From: DHVE2 group archaeon
GTDB taxonomy: Archaea; Thermoplasmatota; Thermoplasmata; Thermoplasmatales; Aciduliprofundaceae
NCBI GenBank assembly: GCA_015523125.1
Contig: WAKX01000015.1
Span: 1-57,309 of the forward strand
Direction: 5' to 3'
Length of the DNA stretch: 57,309 nt
Shown here: positions 19,970 through 43,725 of the stretch, in pieces
Layout of the letters: each line of letters begins with the position of its first letter
Position numbering within the stretch: the stretch's first letter is position 1
Made by a program: the position numbers and the translations under genes
The notes under the pieces: model-generated
Databases searched by the model: none
Told to the model about the DNA's origin: nothing
The model's input: only the letters and a program-made list of their open reading frames with translations

Positions 19970-20593
19970 TCAGAGATCCAACATATTCACTTTCATACTT
20001 TCGGTGTCGATAATGGCCGCGTATCCATGCTTTGCAGGCCCAGGATTTACGAATATAGAATCTCCAATTTTTTTGTACCCCCTCGCCTCGTGCACATGCC
20101 CGCTCACCACCAAAATTGGCCTCGCGAGCTCTACCGCTTTTTTTATTCCCCTGCTCCCTATGTGTTTACCTCCTGGAACTTCGTCTAAGATTCCGTATGG
20201 GGGTTGATGGAGGAGGAATATGCAGCCTTTGCAATCTTTTAGGAATTGGAACGCAAATTCATCGCTGAATGTTATGCCCATATTGAACCCGCCGTTCACA
20301 CCTCCCAATCCTGCGAACTCGTATCCCATGTATTCTTTCTTATTTTTGTGGAGATTCGTCGCCTTGCTTTTCTCTATTCCTTTTATTACATTCACCGGAT
20401 CGCAGTTGCCGGGGACTGCCATCACATGCGTGGGCATGGAATCGATTATTTCCCTTGCATCTTCACCCGAGCCGAAATCCGTGATGTCTCCGGCAATCAG
20501 TATGAGATCAAATTTTTCCATGCCGTATATCTCCTGAACCATGTAGGAAACGCTCTCTTTGCCGTGTATATCCGCGAGAGCCAGAATTTTCAT
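19970..20593 (-). CDS. Cytoplasmic calcineurin-like phosphoesterase (YfcE/MJ0936-like)
   Basis: A 207-residue metallophosphoesterase without signal peptide. The metal ligands are DIHG (residues 8-11), GDITDFG, PGNCD and SGHVHEARG. The shape matches small archaeal phosphodiesterases active on bis-p-nitrophenyl phosphate or cyclic nucleotides; the natural substrate is unknown. It lies 39 bases after the end of the decarboxylase beta-subunit gene on the same strand and could be the last gene of that transcript, but no functional link is evident. Confidence 0.85.
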   Translation of the reverse strand: MKILALADIHGKESVSYMVQEIYGMEKFDLILIAGDITDFGSGEDAREIIDSMPTHVMAVPGNCDPVNVIKGIEKSKATNLHKNKKEYMGYEFAGLGGVNGGFNMGITFSDEFAFQFLKDCKGCIFLLHQPPYGILDEVPGGKHIGSRGIKKAVELARPILVVSGHVHEARGYKKIGDSIFVNPGPAKHGYAAIIDTESMKVNMLDL

Positions 20594-20632
20594 GGGGGGG
20601 AAATGACGTTCAAATTTAATATACGTTGTCTT

Positions 20633-21739
20633 TTAAAGCAGATACGCGATGAACACACCGGCTGCAATAGCTGAACCGATAACCCCGGCCACGTTGGGTC
20701 CCATGGCATGCATGAGAAGGAAATTATTGGGGTCTTCCTTTGCACCCATTTTTTGCACGACCCTCGCGCTCATGGGCACCGCGCTCACGCCGGCGGCGCC
20801 AATCATAGGATTGATTTTCCCATGCGAGAGAAGATAGAAAAGTTTTCCTAAGAGAACTCCGCCCGCGGTGGCCGTGGCGAAGGCAACTATGCCTAGGAAT
20901 AAAATCTCGATGGTCTCTAATGTCAAGAACTTATCTGCAGTCATCATATAACCCACGCCCAATCCTAAGAATATCGTGGCTATGTTTATTAGCTCGTTCT
21001 GGGAAGTCTTTGATAATCTCTCTGTTACTCCACATTCTCTCAGGAGATTGCCGAACATCAGCATTCCTATCAGGGGTACAGCAGGAGGAACTAAAAGACC
21101 CACGACTATGGTGGTTACTATGGGGAATATTATTTTCTCCTTCTTGCTGACCTTTCTCAATGGCTCCATCTTCACCCTTCTCTCTTTTTTCGTAGTCAAT
21201 GATTTTATAACTGGTGGCTGAATTATGGGCACTAGGGACATATAAGAATATGCGGCCACTGCTACTGCCCCTAAGATTTCCGGCGCTAACTTAGTTGCGG
21301 TGTATATTGTAGTCGGGCCATCCGCTCCGCCAATTATTCCAATGGCTGCCGCTTCGTTGATGTTGAACCCGAATATTAGCGCTGATAAGAGTGCGCAGTA
21401 AATGCCGATTTGCGCCGCCGCACCTAACAGAAAGGTTTTCGGATCCGCCAGCAATGGCTCGAAATCGGTCATTGCTCCTATGCCTAGAAATATCAAAAGG
21501 GGAATTGCCTCCGTCCTGATGAGGTAGGTGTAAACTAAATGGAGAAAGCCTTCAGGAGCGCTTGTTAACCCGCTTAGTGGCAAATTCACTATTATTGCGC
21601 TGAACCCTATGGGAATGAGGAGCAGCGGCTCCATCTTGTACTTTATTCCGAGAAAAATAAAGAGAATTCCAATTGAAATCATTGCGATGTTTCCCCATGT
21701 GAGGGCGAATATTCCTGTGAGGGATTGAAAATCCAACAT
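20633..21739 (-). CDS. mmdB: Sodium-translocating decarboxylase beta subunit (methylmalonyl-CoA decarboxylase)
   Basis: A 368-residue membrane protein of the OadB/MmdB/GcdB family, with about nine to eleven helices. Conserved regions are IGIIGGADGPTTIYTATKLAPE (the Asp-containing re-entrant segment that binds Na+) and the C-terminal GAAGVSAVPMSARVVQKMG and HAMGPNVAGVIGSAIAAG. The subunit releases CO2 from carboxybiotin and couples this to Na+ export. It is the last of four decarboxylase genes (A, D, C, B), placed directly downstream of methylmalonyl-CoA mutase and epimerase genes, which points to methylmalonyl-CoA as substrate. Confidence 0.93.
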   Translation of the reverse strand: MLDFQSLTGIFALTWGNIAMISIGILFIFLGIKYKMEPLLLIPIGFSAIIVNLPLSGLTSAPEGFLHLVYTYLIRTEAIPLLIFLGIGAMTDFEPLLADPKTFLLGAAAQIGIYCALLSALIFGFNINEAAAIGIIGGADGPTTIYTATKLAPEILGAVAVAAYSYMSLVPIIQPPVIKSLTTKKERRVKMEPLRKVSKKEKIIFPIVTTIVVGLLVPPAVPLIGMLMFGNLLRECGVTERLSKTSQNELINIATIFLGLGVGYMMTADKFLTLETIEILFLGIVAFATATAGGVLLGKLFYLLSHGKINPMIGAAGVSAVPMSARVVQKMGAKEDPNNFLLMHAMGPNVAGVIGSAIAAGVFIAYLL

Positions 21740-37137: not shown

Positions 37138-38148
37138 CTAACATACCCTCGGAACAGGGTCACCGAGGGGCCTGTCCAAAAACCTCCTCCCCCCGATTTT
37201 CGTTCTCAGCACAACCTTTCCTTCATATTTATCCGTCACTTTTCCAATTATCGCTGCATCTTTGCCGTTTGGAAATCTTCGCATGGCTCTCAGGGCATCT
37301 TCCGCATAAGAAGGGTCAACTATAATCACAACCTTTCCCTCGTTGGCCATGACGAAGGGCGATATTCCCAGCATATCACCCGCGGCAATTACCTCTTTTC
37401 TCAGTGGTACATCTTCTTCGTTTATTTCCATTCCAACTCCCGCTTTTCCTGCCATTTCGTTGAGCACTTCGCTCAATCCACCACGAGTGGGGTCCTTCAT
37501 AGCGTGTATGTTCTCCCACCCTATCTCTTTGGCCACACCTTTCACTATATTCCAAATCGGAGAGACATCGCTCTTGAGAGTGGTTTCGAATTCTATGCCC
37601 TCCCTCATGCTCATTATCGCAAACCCATGGTCACCTATAGTGCCGTTGACAATGATCTCATCGCCAATTTTCGCACCCGAATCTCTTATTATCCTCTCAG
37701 CCTTCCCGATTCCCGCGGTTACCGCGAACATGCCTATTTTCTCATCCACCACCTTCGTGTCTCCGGTTATCACCGGCACAGGTACCTCTTCCGATGTTTT
37801 ATTCATTGAACTTATTATCTTTTTTAACGCCTCGCCATCGAATCCGTTCTCTATGATTAACGAGACCGCGATGGCCAGAGGTTTTGCCCCCATCACAGCG
37901 AGATCGTTTACCGTGCCACTTATTGACAATCTCCCTATATCTCCGCCCGGGAAAAATAGGGGTTTTACAGTGTGCCCGTCGATTGTGAAAATCAAATTTT
38001 CATCAGCGATATCCACGCTGGCCCCGTCATCCAGATCCTCGAGAGATACTTCTCCAGCTGAATTCAGAGAGAAAACCTTCAAAATGTACTCCTTAATCAG
38101 CTTTTCCATTGCCTCGCCACCTGCACCATCAACCATGCTTATTTTCAT
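37138..38148 (-). CDS. hypE: Hydrogenase maturation protein HypE
   Basis: A 336-residue PurM-like ATPase. GAGGEAMEKLI at the start, DDGASVDI, FTIDGHTVKPLFFPGGDIG and MKDPTRGGLSEVLNE form the ATP site. The C-terminus is PRVC: the last Cys accepts carbamoyl from HypF and dehydrates it to a cyano ligand. ATG at 38148 with GGTGA six bases ahead is preferred; a GTG at 38157 overlaps the hypF stop. Confidence 0.95.
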   Translation of the reverse strand: MKISMVDGAGGEAMEKLIKEYILKVFSLNSAGEVSLEDLDDGASVDIADENLIFTIDGHTVKPLFFPGGDIGRLSISGTVNDLAVMGAKPLAIAVSLIIENGFDGEALKKIISSMNKTSEEVPVPVITGDTKVVDEKIGMFAVTAGIGKAERIIRDSGAKIGDEIIVNGTIGDHGFAIMSMREGIEFETTLKSDVSPIWNIVKGVAKEIGWENIHAMKDPTRGGLSEVLNEMAGKAGVGMEINEEDVPLRKEVIAAGDMLGISPFVMANEGKVVIIVDPSYAEDALRAMRRFPNGKDAAIIGKVTDKYEGKVVLRTKIGGRRFLDRPLGDPVPRVC

Positions 38149-38153
38149 CTTAA

Positions 38154-40442
38154 TCACCCAACCTCGTTCTTTTTGAGCATATTCTCTAAATACATACCAC
38201 CAAGATAAGCTTGCCCGGCCGAAATTCCGTTGTCTCCGCGGGGGATTTCTTCCGTGGCTATAAATGAATAGCCCGCTTTTTCAATAACTCTCCGTATTTC
38301 GCGCATGATTATTCCATTATAACACACCCCGCCGCTCGCTCCGATGCTCGTTATTCCCTTTTCTTCCGCAATTCTGATTGCTCTGCTAGCGAAGGCCCGG
38401 GCAATGCTTAGATGCACCGAGTAGGCTATGTTCTCCTTAGATTCGCGAGATTCCAAAATCTGAGGGATGAGAGAACTCACATCTATATTTTCCCCCTCTT
38501 CGATTTCGAAGTTCAAATCTCTATTTCCCCTAGACGCTATGCTTTCTAACTTCATGGCAGGCTCCCCCTCGTAAGACCTATAATGAGATACGTCGAGCAA
38601 AGAAGCTATTGCGTCTAAAAATCTTCCGGTGGAAGAAGAGTAGGATACGTTGATCCCGTGCTCCAGTTGTTTGAATACGATTTCCATTTCTCTCTCCCCG
38701 TACCTGAGAGAAGAAATTGAGTGGGGAAATCTCCTCATAATTTCTTCCGCATCCCGCCCGTAGACCTTGTAGAGTAATCCCGCGAGGGACCGCGCAGGAT
38801 AATAGGATGCCAAATCTCCGCCCGGTAGTGGGAAGTAGGAGATGTGCGACTCTCTCCTTATGCCCTCCGAGGATATTGTTATTATCTCCCCTCCCCACGT
38901 CTTTCCGTCGAGCCCGTAGCCTACGGCGTCCATGGCTATGCCCACAATCTCGTCCACCTTTTTCTCGGCCATTATTGATGCGATGTGCGCGTAGTGGTGC
39001 TGAACCTTCAGAACTTCCACATTTTCAACTTCAGAGATTTCGAAGCCCAACTTGGAGCTGTTGTAGAGGGGGTGAGAATCCACCGCTATTAATTCCAAAT
39101 TATCCGCTTTTAGAAGGCTGCGCATGCGGGCAATTGCATCTTTCAGGAATTCTAGCACTTCGATTTTTCCCGTGTTTCCTATGTACTGCCCGCTGTAAAT
39201 TTTGCCGCCGCGGGAAATCGAAAAGGTGTTCATAAGCTCCGCACCTATGGAGAGAATCTCGTGGGAAAAAGGCATATCCACGGGAAGAGGAACGAAACCC
39301 CGGGAGCGCCTGATCACCGCTCTGCCCTCTGAGAAGCGAACCACGCTGTCGTCTATGCGGTTCACTATACGGCGGTTGTGAAGTAGAAAATAATCGGCCA
39401 CATCTTTTATTTCCCCTATTTTGTCGTTGTCCTTCACCATGGGAAAATCTGGGTAGTTGGCCGATGTCATGACGTAAACTTTCGAATTTGAATAATGAAA
39501 CAGGATGTAATGCACCCCCGCGTACGGAAGCATGACTCCGATGGTGTGCAGGCCCGGTGCGAGTGATTCGGGAAGAGGAAAATTGTGTCTCTTTCTCAGC
39601 AAAACGATTGGCCTCCGATAGCTTTTCAGCTCTTCCTCCTCCTCGCTGGTTATGTATGAGAATTTTCTTATTTCTTCCAAATTAGATGCCATTATGGCGA
39701 AGGGCTGCTCCTTTCTCCTCAATCTCCTTCTTAATTCTTCAACGGGACTTTCGTTTTTAGCATCGCATGCCAGGTGAAATCCGCCGATGCCCTTAATTGC
39801 AACTATATATCCCTCGTCTATCAACTTTGCCGCTTCTTCCAAACCCCCCAAATTTTTCCCATTTCCATCCTCGAGCCAGTAATGAGGCCCGCAGCGCGAG
39901 CAGGATGTGGGCTCTGCGTGGTATCTTCTATCCATAGGATTGGTGTATTCTTCCATGCAATCATCGCACATCGGAAAATCCGCCATGCTCGTGTTCTTTC
40001 TGTCGTAAGGTAGGGACTCAATTATTGAAAATCTCGGACCGCAGTTTGTGCAGACGATGAACGGGTACATGTAGCGCCTGTCCTTCGGATCGAATAGTTC
40101 GCGTAGGCAATCGTCGCATATGGCCACATCCGGAGGTATGATCGAATCTCCGCCCCCGCAATGGCCGGAACTCTCTAAAATCTCGAACTTTGGGTAATTT
40201 TTGATTTCCTCTTCCTTCATTTTGACCCTTTCCACCCTTGCCAGAGGGGGCGCTTTACTTCTCAACTCTCCTATAAATTTCTCTATGTTTTCATTTTCCC
40301 CCTCTATTACGATTTCCACCCCTGCATCCCCTAAGTTTTTCACGTATCCTCGCAACTTATTTTTAACGGCTATTCTGTAAACGAAAGGCCGAAAACCCAC
40401 CCCTTGAACCACTCCACTCACATTTATCTTAAAAGCTCGCAT
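38154..40442 (-). CDS. hypF: Carbamoyltransferase HypF
   Basis: A 762-residue four-domain protein. Residues 1-90 are an acylphosphatase domain (VSGVVQGVGFRPFVYRIA). Two zinc fingers follow (CDDCLRELFDP with CTNCG, then CDDCMEEYTNP with CSRCG). The YrdC-like domain has KGIGGFHLACDA, and the Kae1-like C-terminal half has HHYAHIASIMAE and GASGGVCYNGI. It forms the thiocarboxamide on HypE from carbamoyl phosphate. The ATG at 40442 has GGGGTG ahead and lies four bases past the hypD stop. Confidence 0.95.
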   Translation of the reverse strand: MRAFKINVSGVVQGVGFRPFVYRIAVKNKLRGYVKNLGDAGVEIVIEGENENIEKFIGELRSKAPPLARVERVKMKEEEIKNYPKFEILESSGHCGGGDSIIPPDVAICDDCLRELFDPKDRRYMYPFIVCTNCGPRFSIIESLPYDRKNTSMADFPMCDDCMEEYTNPMDRRYHAEPTSCSRCGPHYWLEDGNGKNLGGLEEAAKLIDEGYIVAIKGIGGFHLACDAKNESPVEELRRRLRRKEQPFAIMASNLEEIRKFSYITSEEEEELKSYRRPIVLLRKRHNFPLPESLAPGLHTIGVMLPYAGVHYILFHYSNSKVYVMTSANYPDFPMVKDNDKIGEIKDVADYFLLHNRRIVNRIDDSVVRFSEGRAVIRRSRGFVPLPVDMPFSHEILSIGAELMNTFSISRGGKIYSGQYIGNTGKIEVLEFLKDAIARMRSLLKADNLELIAVDSHPLYNSSKLGFEISEVENVEVLKVQHHYAHIASIMAEKKVDEIVGIAMDAVGYGLDGKTWGGEIITISSEGIRRESHISYFPLPGGDLASYYPARSLAGLLYKVYGRDAEEIMRRFPHSISSLRYGEREMEIVFKQLEHGINVSYSSSTGRFLDAIASLLDVSHYRSYEGEPAMKLESIASRGNRDLNFEIEEGENIDVSSLIPQILESRESKENIAYSVHLSIARAFASRAIRIAEEKGITSIGASGGVCYNGIIMREIRRVIEKAGYSFIATEEIPRGDNGISAGQAYLGGMYLENMLKKNEVG

Positions 40443-40446
40443 GGCA

Positions 40447-41526
40447 TCACCCCGTAAGTGAGCCGTACTTGTAAAAAATCTGGCATGTTCCCTCGTAAGA
40501 TACCATGCAGGGACCCACGGGATACTGCGGGGTGCAAACCTTACCGAACAACGGGCATTCTGTGGGGAGAATAAGGCCGCGGAGAACCTCGCCGCATCTG
40601 CATCCCGCCTCCAAGTCCGGAAGCTCGGGAATTTCCACATCCACGAACGTTCTTATTTCTAAATCTTCGTATTTCTTCCTCAGAAAGTATCCGCTTTTGG
40701 GAATTACGCCCAGCGCGCGCCATTTCGCATCTTTTACCTCGAAAAATTCTTCTATTGCTTTCTGCGCCGCTGTGTTTCCCTCGTATCTAACTCCCCGGGT
40801 GTATTCGTTCTCAATTTCCACATGATCTTCTCTGAGCATTTTCAAAAGGAGGAGAATTGAGAGAAGCACGTCCAGGGGTTCGAATCCAGATACCACCTGG
40901 GGAATTTTGTACCTCCTGGTGAGATATTCCCAGCCTCTAACACCTATAATCGAAGAAACGTGGCCCGGGGTTATTAGCCCGTCGAAATTTGTTCCCTCTT
41001 CAATGAGAAACTCAACAGCTGGAGGAGTTAAGCGATGCACCGAGTAAATCTTGAAATTTTCCAATCCCTTTTCCCACACCTCCGCCAGAATTCCCGCTGT
41101 TGGGGCCGTGGTGGTCTCGAAGCCCGGGGAAAAATGCACAACTAACTTTTTTTCTTTCAGGGCAAATTTGTAAGAATCGTATATGGAATAAACAACACGA
41201 ATATCGTAACCTTCTTGTTTAAGATTCGCAAAGCTTCCCATGGGGGTGGGAATTCGGTACATGTCCCCGAAGGTTGTAACTATCATGTCCTTTTTCTTGG
41301 CTATTTCCATCATGGCAACGATATCTTCCACTGGAGTGATGCATACCGGGCACCCGGGGCCCGCGATTATCTTCACGTTCTCCGGAAGCAATGCCCTTAT
41401 CCCGCCTCGAGTTATTGTGTCTTCGTGGGTTCCGCAAACATCCATGAATCGAACTTCTCTTCCGAGATCTCTGGCCATTTGAAAAATTTCTTTGAGTATT
41501 TTTTTCGCTACATTTTTCTCGTTCAT
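40447..41526 (-). CDS. hypD: Hydrogenase maturation iron-sulfur protein HypD
   Basis: A 359-residue protein with the HypD signatures FMDVCGTHEDTITRGGIR, GPGCPVCITP and FSPGFETTTAPTAG. The C-terminal Cys set for its 4Fe-4S cluster is CRCGEVLRG, CPLFGKVC and GPCMVSYEGTC. With HypC it builds the Fe(CN)2CO unit. The ATG at 41526 overlaps the hypC stop. Confidence 0.95.
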   Translation of the reverse strand: MNEKNVAKKILKEIFQMARDLGREVRFMDVCGTHEDTITRGGIRALLPENVKIIAGPGCPVCITPVEDIVAMMEIAKKKDMIVTTFGDMYRIPTPMGSFANLKQEGYDIRVVYSIYDSYKFALKEKKLVVHFSPGFETTTAPTAGILAEVWEKGLENFKIYSVHRLTPPAVEFLIEEGTNFDGLITPGHVSSIIGVRGWEYLTRRYKIPQVVSGFEPLDVLLSILLLLKMLREDHVEIENEYTRGVRYEGNTAAQKAIEEFFEVKDAKWRALGVIPKSGYFLRKKYEDLEIRTFVDVEIPELPDLEAGCRCGEVLRGLILPTECPLFGKVCTPQYPVGPCMVSYEGTCQIFYKYGSLTG

Positions 41527-41744
41527 TCGGGCTCCCCCAGAATCAACAACCAAGCATCTATGCTCTTCAACGCATCCTCCTCTCGAACTTTTTCTATGGC
41601 GAAGCCCGTGTGCACGATGACGTAATCTCCAACCTTCGCATCTGGGATGAAATCTATTCTTGCCTCCCTTTTCACCCCACCGTAATCCACCACCGCTACG
41701 GAGCCGTTAATTTCCACTATCTTTCCAGGTACTGCAAGACACAT
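41523..41744 (-). CDS. hypC: Hydrogenase assembly chaperone HypC
   Basis: A 73-residue OB-fold protein starting MCLAVPGKIV; Cys2 is the iron ligand. It shuttles the Fe(CN)2CO group between HypD and the large subunit. It is the first gene of a hypCDFEA-ATPase operon. No Shine-Dalgarno stands before it, while a TATA-like TTTATTAAGG lies about 28 bases upstream, pointing to a leaderless start. Confidence 0.94.
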   Translation of the reverse strand: MCLAVPGKIVEINGSVAVVDYGGVKREARIDFIPDAKVGDYVIVHTGFAIEKVREEDALKSIDAWLLILGEPE

Positions 41745-41826: not shown

Positions 41827-42264
41827 TCATAATATTTTTATTTCTTTTTCCGCATTGGATTTAAGGAGGCGAAGCAACTTCTCTCCCGCTTCCATGACTT
41901 CAGGAGAAATGCTCGCTCCGAATTCCATGATCTTTGGCTGTATCCCGATGAGCACTATTTCGCCCACAAATTCCCGAAGGTATGAGATAAAAAATGAAAG
42001 TGGCATCCCGTGGGTGCTGAAAGCAACCGAGCGTATCTTTTCAACTGGCACTACGCGAATTGCTCCCGGCTCCAAACCCATCAAAGCGGCGTCCACCAGT
42101 ACAAGCTTATCTGGATGCAATTTTTTTATATCGGATGTGAAATCCTCCGGAACCTGCCCCGCCACGATTACTTCCCAGCCTTCCTTTTTGAAGTTTCTCG
42201 CCACGTAAACCCCTATGCCATCGTCGCCCCGCATCTCGTTCCCGATTCCCATAAGCAGATTCAT
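41827..42264 (-). CDS. Hydrogenase maturation protease (HycI/HyaD family)
   Basis: A 145-residue protease with the family start LLMGIGNEMRGDDGIGVYV (Glu/Asp nickel-sensing residue), DAALMGLEPG with the second Asp, and STHGMPLSF with the His. It removes the C-terminal tail of the large subunit after nickel insertion; MbhL in this window has such a tail. AGGAG precedes the ATG at 42264. It is 82 bases upstream of hypC on the same strand. Confidence 0.92.
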   Translation of the reverse strand: MNLLMGIGNEMRGDDGIGVYVARNFKKEGWEVIVAGQVPEDFTSDIKKLHPDKLVLVDAALMGLEPGAIRVVPVEKIRSVAFSTHGMPLSFFISYLREFVGEIVLIGIQPKIMEFGASISPEVMEAGEKLLRLLKSNAEKEIKIL

Positions 42265-42300: not shown

Positions 42301-42316
42301 TCCTTACGCGTAAGGA
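42301..42316. promoter_or_regulatory. Perfect 16-bp palindrome between protease and membrane-protein genes
   Basis: TCCTTACGCGTAAGGA is its own reverse complement and lies in the 139-bp divergent gap, 37 bases from one start and 88 from the other. Its right half plus two bases (TAAGGATA) recurs in the hypC promoter on the minus strand. A dimeric repressor site for both directions is likely but unproven. Confidence 0.55.
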
Positions 42317-42362
42317 TATGCATTACAATTTTTTAATTTTTGTTAGAAAGTAATACGAAACT

Positions 42363-42375
42363 CTTATATTTTATT
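42363..42375 (+). promoter_or_regulatory. TATA box of the small membrane-protein pair
   Basis: CTTATATTTTATT lies about 35 bases before the ATG at 42404 and is flanked by ACGAAA (42355) and ACGAC (42376), again 21 bases apart. Confidence 0.5.
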
Positions 42376-42403
42376 ACGACATGAACATATGAGGTGACGA
42401 AAA

Positions 42404-42742
42404 ATGGCATGTTTCCTCGTACCCGGTTCGGAAGGGATCGTGGTGACCCTTCTAACGAAGGTGATGAAAAAAGAGAAAGTAGAAAAATTAAAACTGAAAT
42501 GGCTAAACGTCATGCTCTGGGGCGGAACAATACTACTTGCGATAGAGCACATCTGGCACGGAGAAGTGGTTCCGTGGCCCCCGTTCTTAACGGCCATGAG
42601 CAATCCATCGGATACAGCAGCCATGTTGCATGAGATGGCAACCCATGGAGTCTTAATGGCATCTCTGGTTACATTCGCATGGGCCGTTATGCTGAAGCTC
42701 TCTTCCTCTCGCGTGCCCGTGAAAAATCCCGCGAGGCGATGA
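42404..42742 (+). CDS. Small membrane protein of unknown function, hydrogenase-associated
   Basis: A 112-residue protein with two membrane helices. It starts MACFLVPGSEGIVVTLLTK, then a basic stretch, helix 1 with LLAIEHIWHGEVVPWPPF, then LHEMATHGVLMA leading into helix 2. His and Glu residues placed inside or at the edge of the helices could bind a metal or heme, but this is inference. GAGGTGA precedes the ATG. It is divergent from the hydrogenase protease and cotranscribed with the next gene. I recall similar N-termini in other anaerobes but cannot name a function. Confidence 0.75.
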   Translation: MACFLVPGSEGIVVTLLTKVMKKEKVEKLKLKWLNVMLWGGTILLAIEHIWHGEVVPWPPFLTAMSNPSDTAAMLHEMATHGVLMASLVTFAWAVMLKLSSSRVPVKNPARR

Positions 42743-42745
42743 TCC

Positions 42746-43045
42746 ATGTGGCTCTTAACCATGTTGTTCATGGCGGTGATGAGCACTTTGCTTTGGTACA
42801 TCTGGGAAAAGGGAGATGAGTATAGAGTGGATATCTTAGCCTTGGTATCTTGGGGAACTGTGATAATGGTGTTTGCAGACCATCTAATGGGATACATAGA
42901 AGAGGGTGTTTTTCTTGATACTTCCTCCAACGCGCTTCTACTTGGATTTCTACTCGCCACATTTGCATTGATGCTCTGGGCCATCGCACTTATAATCGAA
43001 GACCCCAAGGGAAAAATATGGAAAAGAGTCAGGGCTGAGACGTAA
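42746..43045 (+). CDS. Small three-helix membrane protein of unknown function
   Basis: A 99-residue protein with three helices (WLLTMLFMAVMSTLLWYIW; ILALVSWGTVIMVFADHLMG; LLGFLLATFALMLWAIALII). The second helix ends in a His and Asp, and EEG follows. It starts four bases after the preceding membrane protein gene and likely forms a complex with it. I do not recognise a family. A longer frame exists on the opposite strand but lacks any start signal. Confidence 0.72.
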   Translation: MWLLTMLFMAVMSTLLWYIWEKGDEYRVDILALVSWGTVIMVFADHLMGYIEEGVFLDTSSNALLLGFLLATFALMLWAIALIIEDPKGKIWKRVRAET

Positions 43046-43158: not shown

Positions 43159-43725
43159 TTAGAACACGTTGCCCTTAACAACCAATGCTATCATCGGTAT
43201 GCCGAGCAGGATTACTAAGGGAATCAGGCATACGCTCGTATTTCCTCCGGAGTCGGAGGAGGAACTTTCTACTCCTTTGTACAGGGTTATATTGTAATTC
43301 ACAGACACGCTGCTCCCGGAGGGTTGAGCACTTCCTGCCGCTGAATTGTCAATTACCACGTAATAGGTGCCCGCATTCGGAGGAACCCACTTAAGGGATG
43401 CGGAATTTACGTTCAGTTTTGAGCTGTCTTGGTATGCAACGCTATTTCCATTCTTGTAGTTTTGGAATTGGTTCTCTGTAAAGATGAACACGTCTATGGA
43501 TGGACCGCTTACCACTTTAACCACGATGGACAGGGTATAATTGGAGCTGTCCACGGTCACGGGCCATGCAACGTAATCCCCCGCATTCAAATTTTCTGTT
43601 CCACTTTCGTGGGATACCTGCTCCAGCGCGCTAGCCGTCGGGAAAGTTGCCGCGAGTAACACTCCAAAAATCGCAATTGCTGCAAAGATGGCAGCAGCAT
43701 TTTTTAAGGTGTTTTTGTTTTTCAT
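43159..43725 (-). CDS. Exported, membrane-anchored PPC-like beta-sandwich protein
   Basis: A 188-residue protein. The signal peptide (IFAAIAIFGVLLAATFPTAS) ends in ALA-like SALE near residue 34. The middle (residues 40-150) resembles a PPC-type pre-peptidase beta-sandwich (LNAGDYVAWPV, VFIFTENQFQNY, AGTYYVVIDNSA). A Ser/Gly linker and a C-terminal helix (VCLIPLVILLGIPMIALVV) anchor it outside. No catalytic residues; a binding or structural surface role is likely. Strong GAGGTGA and a TATA box support expression as a single gene. Confidence 0.75.
   Translation of the reverse strand: MKNKNTLKNAAAIFAAIAIFGVLLAATFPTASALEQVSHESGTENLNAGDYVAWPVTVDSSNYTLSIVVKVVSGPSIDVFIFTENQFQNYKNGNSVAYQDSSKLNVNSASLKWVPPNAGTYYVVIDNSAAGSAQPSGSSVSVNYNITLYKGVESSSSDSGGNTSVCLIPLVILLGIPMIALVVKGNVF

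Follow-up and report, generated by a model that had tools for sequence, protein, structure and literature searches.

A paired family of small membrane proteins linked to nickel homeostasis, encoded beside hydrogenase maturation genes in a DHVE2 group archaeon

Introduction

Two small membrane-protein genes, here called A and B, lie next to NiFe-hydrogenase maturation genes in contig WAKX01000015.1 of a DHVE2 group archaeon, raising the question of what they do and how closely they are tied to hydrogenase. The whole 57,309-nucleotide stretch analyzed is referred to as the window. A sequence-only reading had described two small coupled ORFs sharing a control region with the hydrogenase protease, and had offered as possible roles a nickel or gas channel, a heme-binding pair or an assembly factor for Mbh.

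Results and discussion

The locus

The motifs on which that reading was built (AIEHIWHGE, LHEMATHG and VFADHLMG) are all present, and both ORFs are real and conserved. The shared control region was likewise confirmed, as A and hycI are divergent with a common gap of 139 bp. A and B are encoded on the same strand with three bases between them (junction TGA-TCC-ATG). The features of the window are as follows.

37138..41744, minus strand: HypC, HypD, HypF and HypE of NiFe-hydrogenase maturation (Pfam PF01455, PF01924, HypF domains, AIRS)
41827..42264, minus strand: HycI-type hydrogenase maturation protease (TIGR00142, 148.5 bits, above cut-off)
42350..42377, plus strand: NikR-box-like inverted repeat GTAATAC-N14-TTATTAC, flanking a TATA-like TTATAT at 42364-42369
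42391..42397, plus strand: Shine-Dalgarno-like GAGGTGA of ORF A, read directly
42404..42742, plus strand: ORF A, 112 aa, three predicted transmembrane helices (N-out/C-in), with a MAC N-terminus, EHxWHGE, a re-entrant PWPPFLTAM and LHE; proposed nickel-binding subunit
42746..43045, plus strand: ORF B, 99 aa, three predicted transmembrane helices, paralogue of A with invariant D45; proposed partner subunit
20594..20632, 39 bp: empty ancestral slot between a phosphoesterase gene (19970-20593, minus strand; Pfam Metallophos) and an OAD_beta gene (20633-21739, minus strand; PF03977)

The AIRS-domain protein is taken as HypE from its domains and operon position, and the window also encodes a group-4-like hydrogenase large subunit (PF00346 and PF00374). 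Two other features were noted near the pair. A perfect 16-bp palindrome, TCCTTACGCGTAAGGA, lies between hycI and A at 42301-42316 and is not conserved in the near-twin locus L002, and a small predicted secreted protein is encoded beside the pair at 43159-43725 (minus strand); its PPC-like match is weak, at E 0.06, and falls below cut-off.

A family of paired paralogues

A search of GTDB genomes with a single protein gave 176 relatives, of which the best 80 loci were kept; this sample was picked by short peptide patterns covering some of the conserved residues and is biased accordingly. Among named organisms, DHVE2-group archaea have the closest versions of the pair. Within these best 80 of 176, A identity ranges from 44 to 99%, and the carriers include archaea (Thermoplasmata, Archaeoglobaceae, Altiarchaeales, Bathyarchaeota, Aigarchaeota-like lineages, Desulfurococcales and Micrarchaeota) as well as Dehalococcoidia, Firmicutes, Coriobacteria, Elusimicrobia and others. 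B adjoins A wherever the contig permits, although its placement varies (downstream on the same strand, upstream, or divergent). An HMM search of 196 Thermoplasmatota genomes, made with no pattern selection, gave 40 with a strong A match, and 36 of these have B next to A; in two of the others the contig ends, one holds a divergent singleton and one is missing B. Across 250 Bacillota genomes A was present in six.

Chance ORFs were rejected as an explanation, given the conservation of A and B across the fetched loci. When 80 A and 74 B members were scanned against Pfam, no coherent match emerged, nor was one found in NCBIfam or PDB sequences; the few weak Pfam matches, to HlyIII (four of the 74 B members) and Nitrate_red_gam (one of the 80 A members), are scattered. 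The two proteins are paralogues of three helices each. They are homologous to each other by hhalign (probability 95%, E 2.6e-8), and the profile of each weakly matches genes of the other. We found no account of the pair in the non-subscription literature searched.

Several less typical relatives were also observed. Single-gene A relatives (MVCY..., DHLWNGE; MGCF in L101) with no recognised B partner occur at L093:3092-3382, L094, L099, L100 and L101, mostly adjoining nikR and/or larC/larB/larE. An Archaeoglobaceae bin carries an in-frame TGA in both A and B (L025:9712-10303), reflecting decay or sequencing error, while its relative L026 is intact. At L117:2319-3287 (G063) A adjoins nikR and B is apparently missing, in which it differs from its genus mate L108.

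Conserved residues and predicted topology

A residues C3, E48, H49, W51, H52, E54 and E77 are found in 81/81 sequences of the biased, pattern-chosen sample, and D45, W17, W36 and W78 are conserved in B of the same sample. Among relatives found by profile, position 52 has Ser in G062 and Asn in singletons in place of His, and E48 is sometimes Asp, while C3, H49 and E54 are kept in those read. Residue 2 of A is Ala or Gly, or Val in divergent singletons; with any of these the initiator Met can be removed, which would leave X-Cys at the mature N-terminus. Such a terminus resembles the N-terminal nickel sites of NiSOD and NikM.

An approximate heterodimer was modeled with AlphaFold2 as an artificial A-W-S-B read-through fusion (translation table 4, W at the A stop). 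The mixed alignment A5 of A, B and fused rows was dropped for folding because B rows fell on the A half, and alignment A4 was used. Each subunit of the model (pLDDT 82.5, pTM only 0.64) has three helices, A also showing a short re-entrant helix at residues 59-66, and Foldseek returned no solved structure significantly like the model (best E 2.5). Loop 2 averages 0.17 K+R in A and B alike; positive charge falls mostly in loop 1, strongly in A and weakly in B, and in the C-termini. By the positive-inside rule, the N-termini and the EHxWHGE/PWPPFLTAM/LHE region are predicted to face outward, which would place C3, E48, H49, E54 and E77 of A and D45 of B at the outer face.

NikR sites and gene neighbors

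Clustering of neighbors among the best 80 of 176 relatives plus the window placed nikR about 0.6-1.5 kb from A in 14 of 81 loci, with NikR identity confirmed by NCBIfam for three representatives. Other A loci are flanked by genes for LarB, LarC, HypA-F, or Ech or F420-nonreducing-type NiFe hydrogenases; hyp, Ech, larB and larC genes are among the bacterial neighbors as well. No ATPase gene is conserved beside the pair in the fetched loci.

A reversed NikR signal, GTAACAC-N13/14-GTGTTAC, has been published for D. psychrophila (PMC545781). Upstream of A, 23 of 49 archaeal loci carry the repeat GTAACAC-N13..16-GTGTTAC with at most two mismatches, whereas dinucleotide shuffles gave a mean of 0; these repeats match the published signal and are taken as NikR-type operators. 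The same scan gave no NikR-box signal upstream of bacterial A loci.

In two Elusimicrobia loci (L046:5296-9748 and L078:1906-6878) nikR lies near A-B and is followed by genes for two further proteins, one of them a radical SAM/BATS protein and the other a HydE-like radical SAM enzyme fused to a HypC domain. HypD was not detectable in these genomes, and the gene set could represent a HypD-independent route of hydrogenase maturation.

Co-occurrence across genomes

The 196 Thermoplasmatota genomes contain A in 45, HypD in 94, CbiM in 34 and NicO in 9 (6 above cut-off). HypD is found in 42 of 45 genomes with A and in 52 of 151 without it (Fisher 4e-13, a value overstated by the non-independence of genomes). 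A does go together with NiFe-hydrogenase genomes, and to this extent the earlier tie to hydrogenase maturation stands; yet the link is indirect, with nickel as the common factor, and a particular connection to the protease or to Mbh finds no support. Instead of hycI, which was seen beside the pair only in the window genome and its near-twin, the neighbors that recur are nikR, lar and hyp genes; in archaea it is nikR. Strong NikR matches occur in 37 of the 45 genomes with A. Outside Thermoplasmatota, HypD accompanies A in 39 of 50 genomes, and LarC was detected in 8 of the 11 that lack HypD.

These distributions bear on whether A-B instead serves NiFe hydrogenase specifically, as a membrane-bound factor for its assembly or for nickel delivery, a view close to the earlier Mbh proposal. 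The window arrangement, with A-B divergent from hycI beside hypCDFE, speaks for such a factor, as do A-B downstream of hypDE in L038 and L063 and ahead of Ech genes in L057. However, A-B also adjoins larB/larC in L024, L051 and L072 (LarC in L072 confirmed by NCBIfam), A is absent from 52 of the 94 HypD-positive Thermoplasmatota genomes, the carriers with LarC and no HypD show that the pair is not confined to NiFe-hydrogenase genomes, and known importers replace A-B in situ. We regard a hydrogenase-specific factor as quite unlikely. No neighbor was found to support a heme-binding pair or a gas channel.

A was never found together with NikM/CbiM in Thermoplasmatota except in the Methanomassiliicoccales-like family f5. 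Among HypD-positive genomes outside f5, none has both A and CbiM, 34 have A only, 15 CbiM only and 23 neither (p 1.5e-5 for exclusion, again overstated since genomes are not independent samples). The contrast also holds inside single genera (G141 versus G147; G044/G130 versus G021). Some of the 23 genomes with neither have a nikR-linked ABC system. NicO and A never occur together in the 196 genomes.

Cobalt, or divalent metals generally, could be the substrate in place of nickel. In Methanomassiliicoccales-like genomes A-B coexists with CbiM, and some of them have cobalamin-type genes close to the pair, which makes cobalt possible there, though CbiA-like genes could also serve synthesis of the nickel cofactor F430. 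For the family as a whole a cobalt or general importer seems improbable given the NikR linkage and sites and the co-occurrence with HypD and LarC.

Replacement beside nikR

The strongest argument for uptake is that A-B is swapped in place with known or likely metal importers. In the family of the window organism, X in the slot OAD_beta - X - nikR - phosphoesterase - coiled-coil gene is nikMNQO in G029 (L082) and A-B in L003 and L008; A-B also lies between OAD_beta and nikR in L004, L005, L007 and L084. In a distant family, the slot archease - nikR - X holds NikKMLQO in L090, a TroA-type ABC system in L095-L098, a single-gene A relative in L094, and B-A followed by larC/larB in L104-L106. L090 and L104 belong to the same genus.

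The TroA-type loci merit separate mention. At L095:3071-5756, and in L096-L098, the genes beside nikR encode an ABC ATPase, a binding protein of TroA/ZnuA type and an FmdE-like protein; these genomes have HypD and lack both A-B and CbiM. This system is predicted to be a nickel ABC importer.

In the window, the slot that holds nikMNQO-nikR or A-B-nikR in sister genomes is empty. NikR was not detected in the window genome or in L002, and the repeat upstream of A is weak, with three mismatches to the NikR signal; L002 has lost part of its left half. In the apparent absence of NikR, the repeat is probably a relic. The window organism appears to have lost nikR and moved A-B beside hycI, leaving a decaying operator, and the control region common to A and hycI accordingly looks like a local arrangement and not the essence of the family.

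Proposed function

Taken together, the results provide good support for A-B as a new family of nickel-homeostasis membrane proteins. Computationally, we observed conservation, paralogy, NikR sites and nikR neighbors, co-occurrence, exclusion of NikM outside one family, and slot replacement. From these we infer transport, its direction, nickel specificity, the heterodimer, the metal ligands and the energy source. A-B is probably a two-subunit Ni(II) importer without its own ATPase, of a previously undescribed family; a nickel channel was thus the best-supported of the earlier options.

A and B would assemble as a heterodimer of 3+3 helices. Ni(II) would be caught at the outer face by Cys3, Glu48, His49, usually His52, Glu54 and Glu77 of A, joined by Asp45 of B, and would cross the heterodimer with no dedicated ATPase; either the membrane potential or a coupled ion would supply the energy. 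The imported nickel would reach HypA/HypB and the NiFe hydrogenases in the window organism, and LarC/LarA or other nickel enzymes in other carriers. In most archaea, NikR would bind the repeats flanking the TATA element when nickel is plentiful and repress the pair.

More tentatively, with the balance leaning somewhat against it, A-B and the single-gene relatives of the MVCY...DHLWNGE type may form one new superfamily of minimal nickel importers found across archaea and anaerobic bacteria, having a mature X-Cys, NiSOD/NikM-like square-planar site at the outer mouth and a 3+3 pore. The single-gene forms would then be homodimers and A/B a duplicated heterodimer.

The small size and 3+3 helices would also suit accessory or substrate-capture subunits needing an unlinked transporter or ATPase, and small membrane parts such as NikM/NikN do work with NikQO. 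We consider this unlikely, as neither CbiM nor NicO was detected in the window genome and the pair lacks a conserved ATPase neighbor. A nickel exporter or nickel-sensing membrane complex is very unlikely: the regulatory neighborhood fits any nickel-homeostasis role, but the sites lie on either side of the TATA element, where nickel-loaded NikR would be expected to act as a repressor, and the genes replaced at the same slots are importers.

Comparison with known nickel systems

Compared with the ECF-type NikMNQO/CbiMNQO systems, a Ni(II) importer A-B would be similar in its nikR linkage, its chromosomal slot in sister genera and a putative metal ligand close to residue 1 of an invariant N-terminus, and different in having two three-helix paralogues and neither ATPase nor NikQ; the CbiM/NikM profile PF01891 matched none of the 80 A or 74 B members. 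NiCoT/NicO proteins are also membrane permeases without an ATPase, as proposed for A-B, and NicO adjoins nikR in some Thermoplasmatota (L092). They are single chains of eight helices, unlike the 3+3 helices of A-B, and PF03824 matched none of the same members. HupE/UreJ permeases have helix motifs that contain His and follow the DH and HGxxHGxE style, similar to those of A-B, which is a lead only; A and B are separate subunits, unlike HupE/UreJ, and the Pfam profiles of these permeases matched none of the 80 A and 74 B members. The TroA-type system shares the archease-nikR-X slot with A-B but is a binding-protein-dependent ABC transporter unrelated in sequence.

A survey from 2009 identified organisms that possess nickel enzymes or make B12 yet have none of the known Ni/Co transporters, and suggested that uptake systems still to be recognized serve them (PMC2667541). 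A-B would fill this gap for the window organism, whose genome encodes hydrogenase but lacks both NikM/CbiM and NicO. For many uncultured archaea, Dehalococcoidia, Coriobacteria and other gut anaerobes the pair would do the same. A-B would be among the smallest metal importers known, and two 'hypothetical proteins' would become a testable nickel-supply module.
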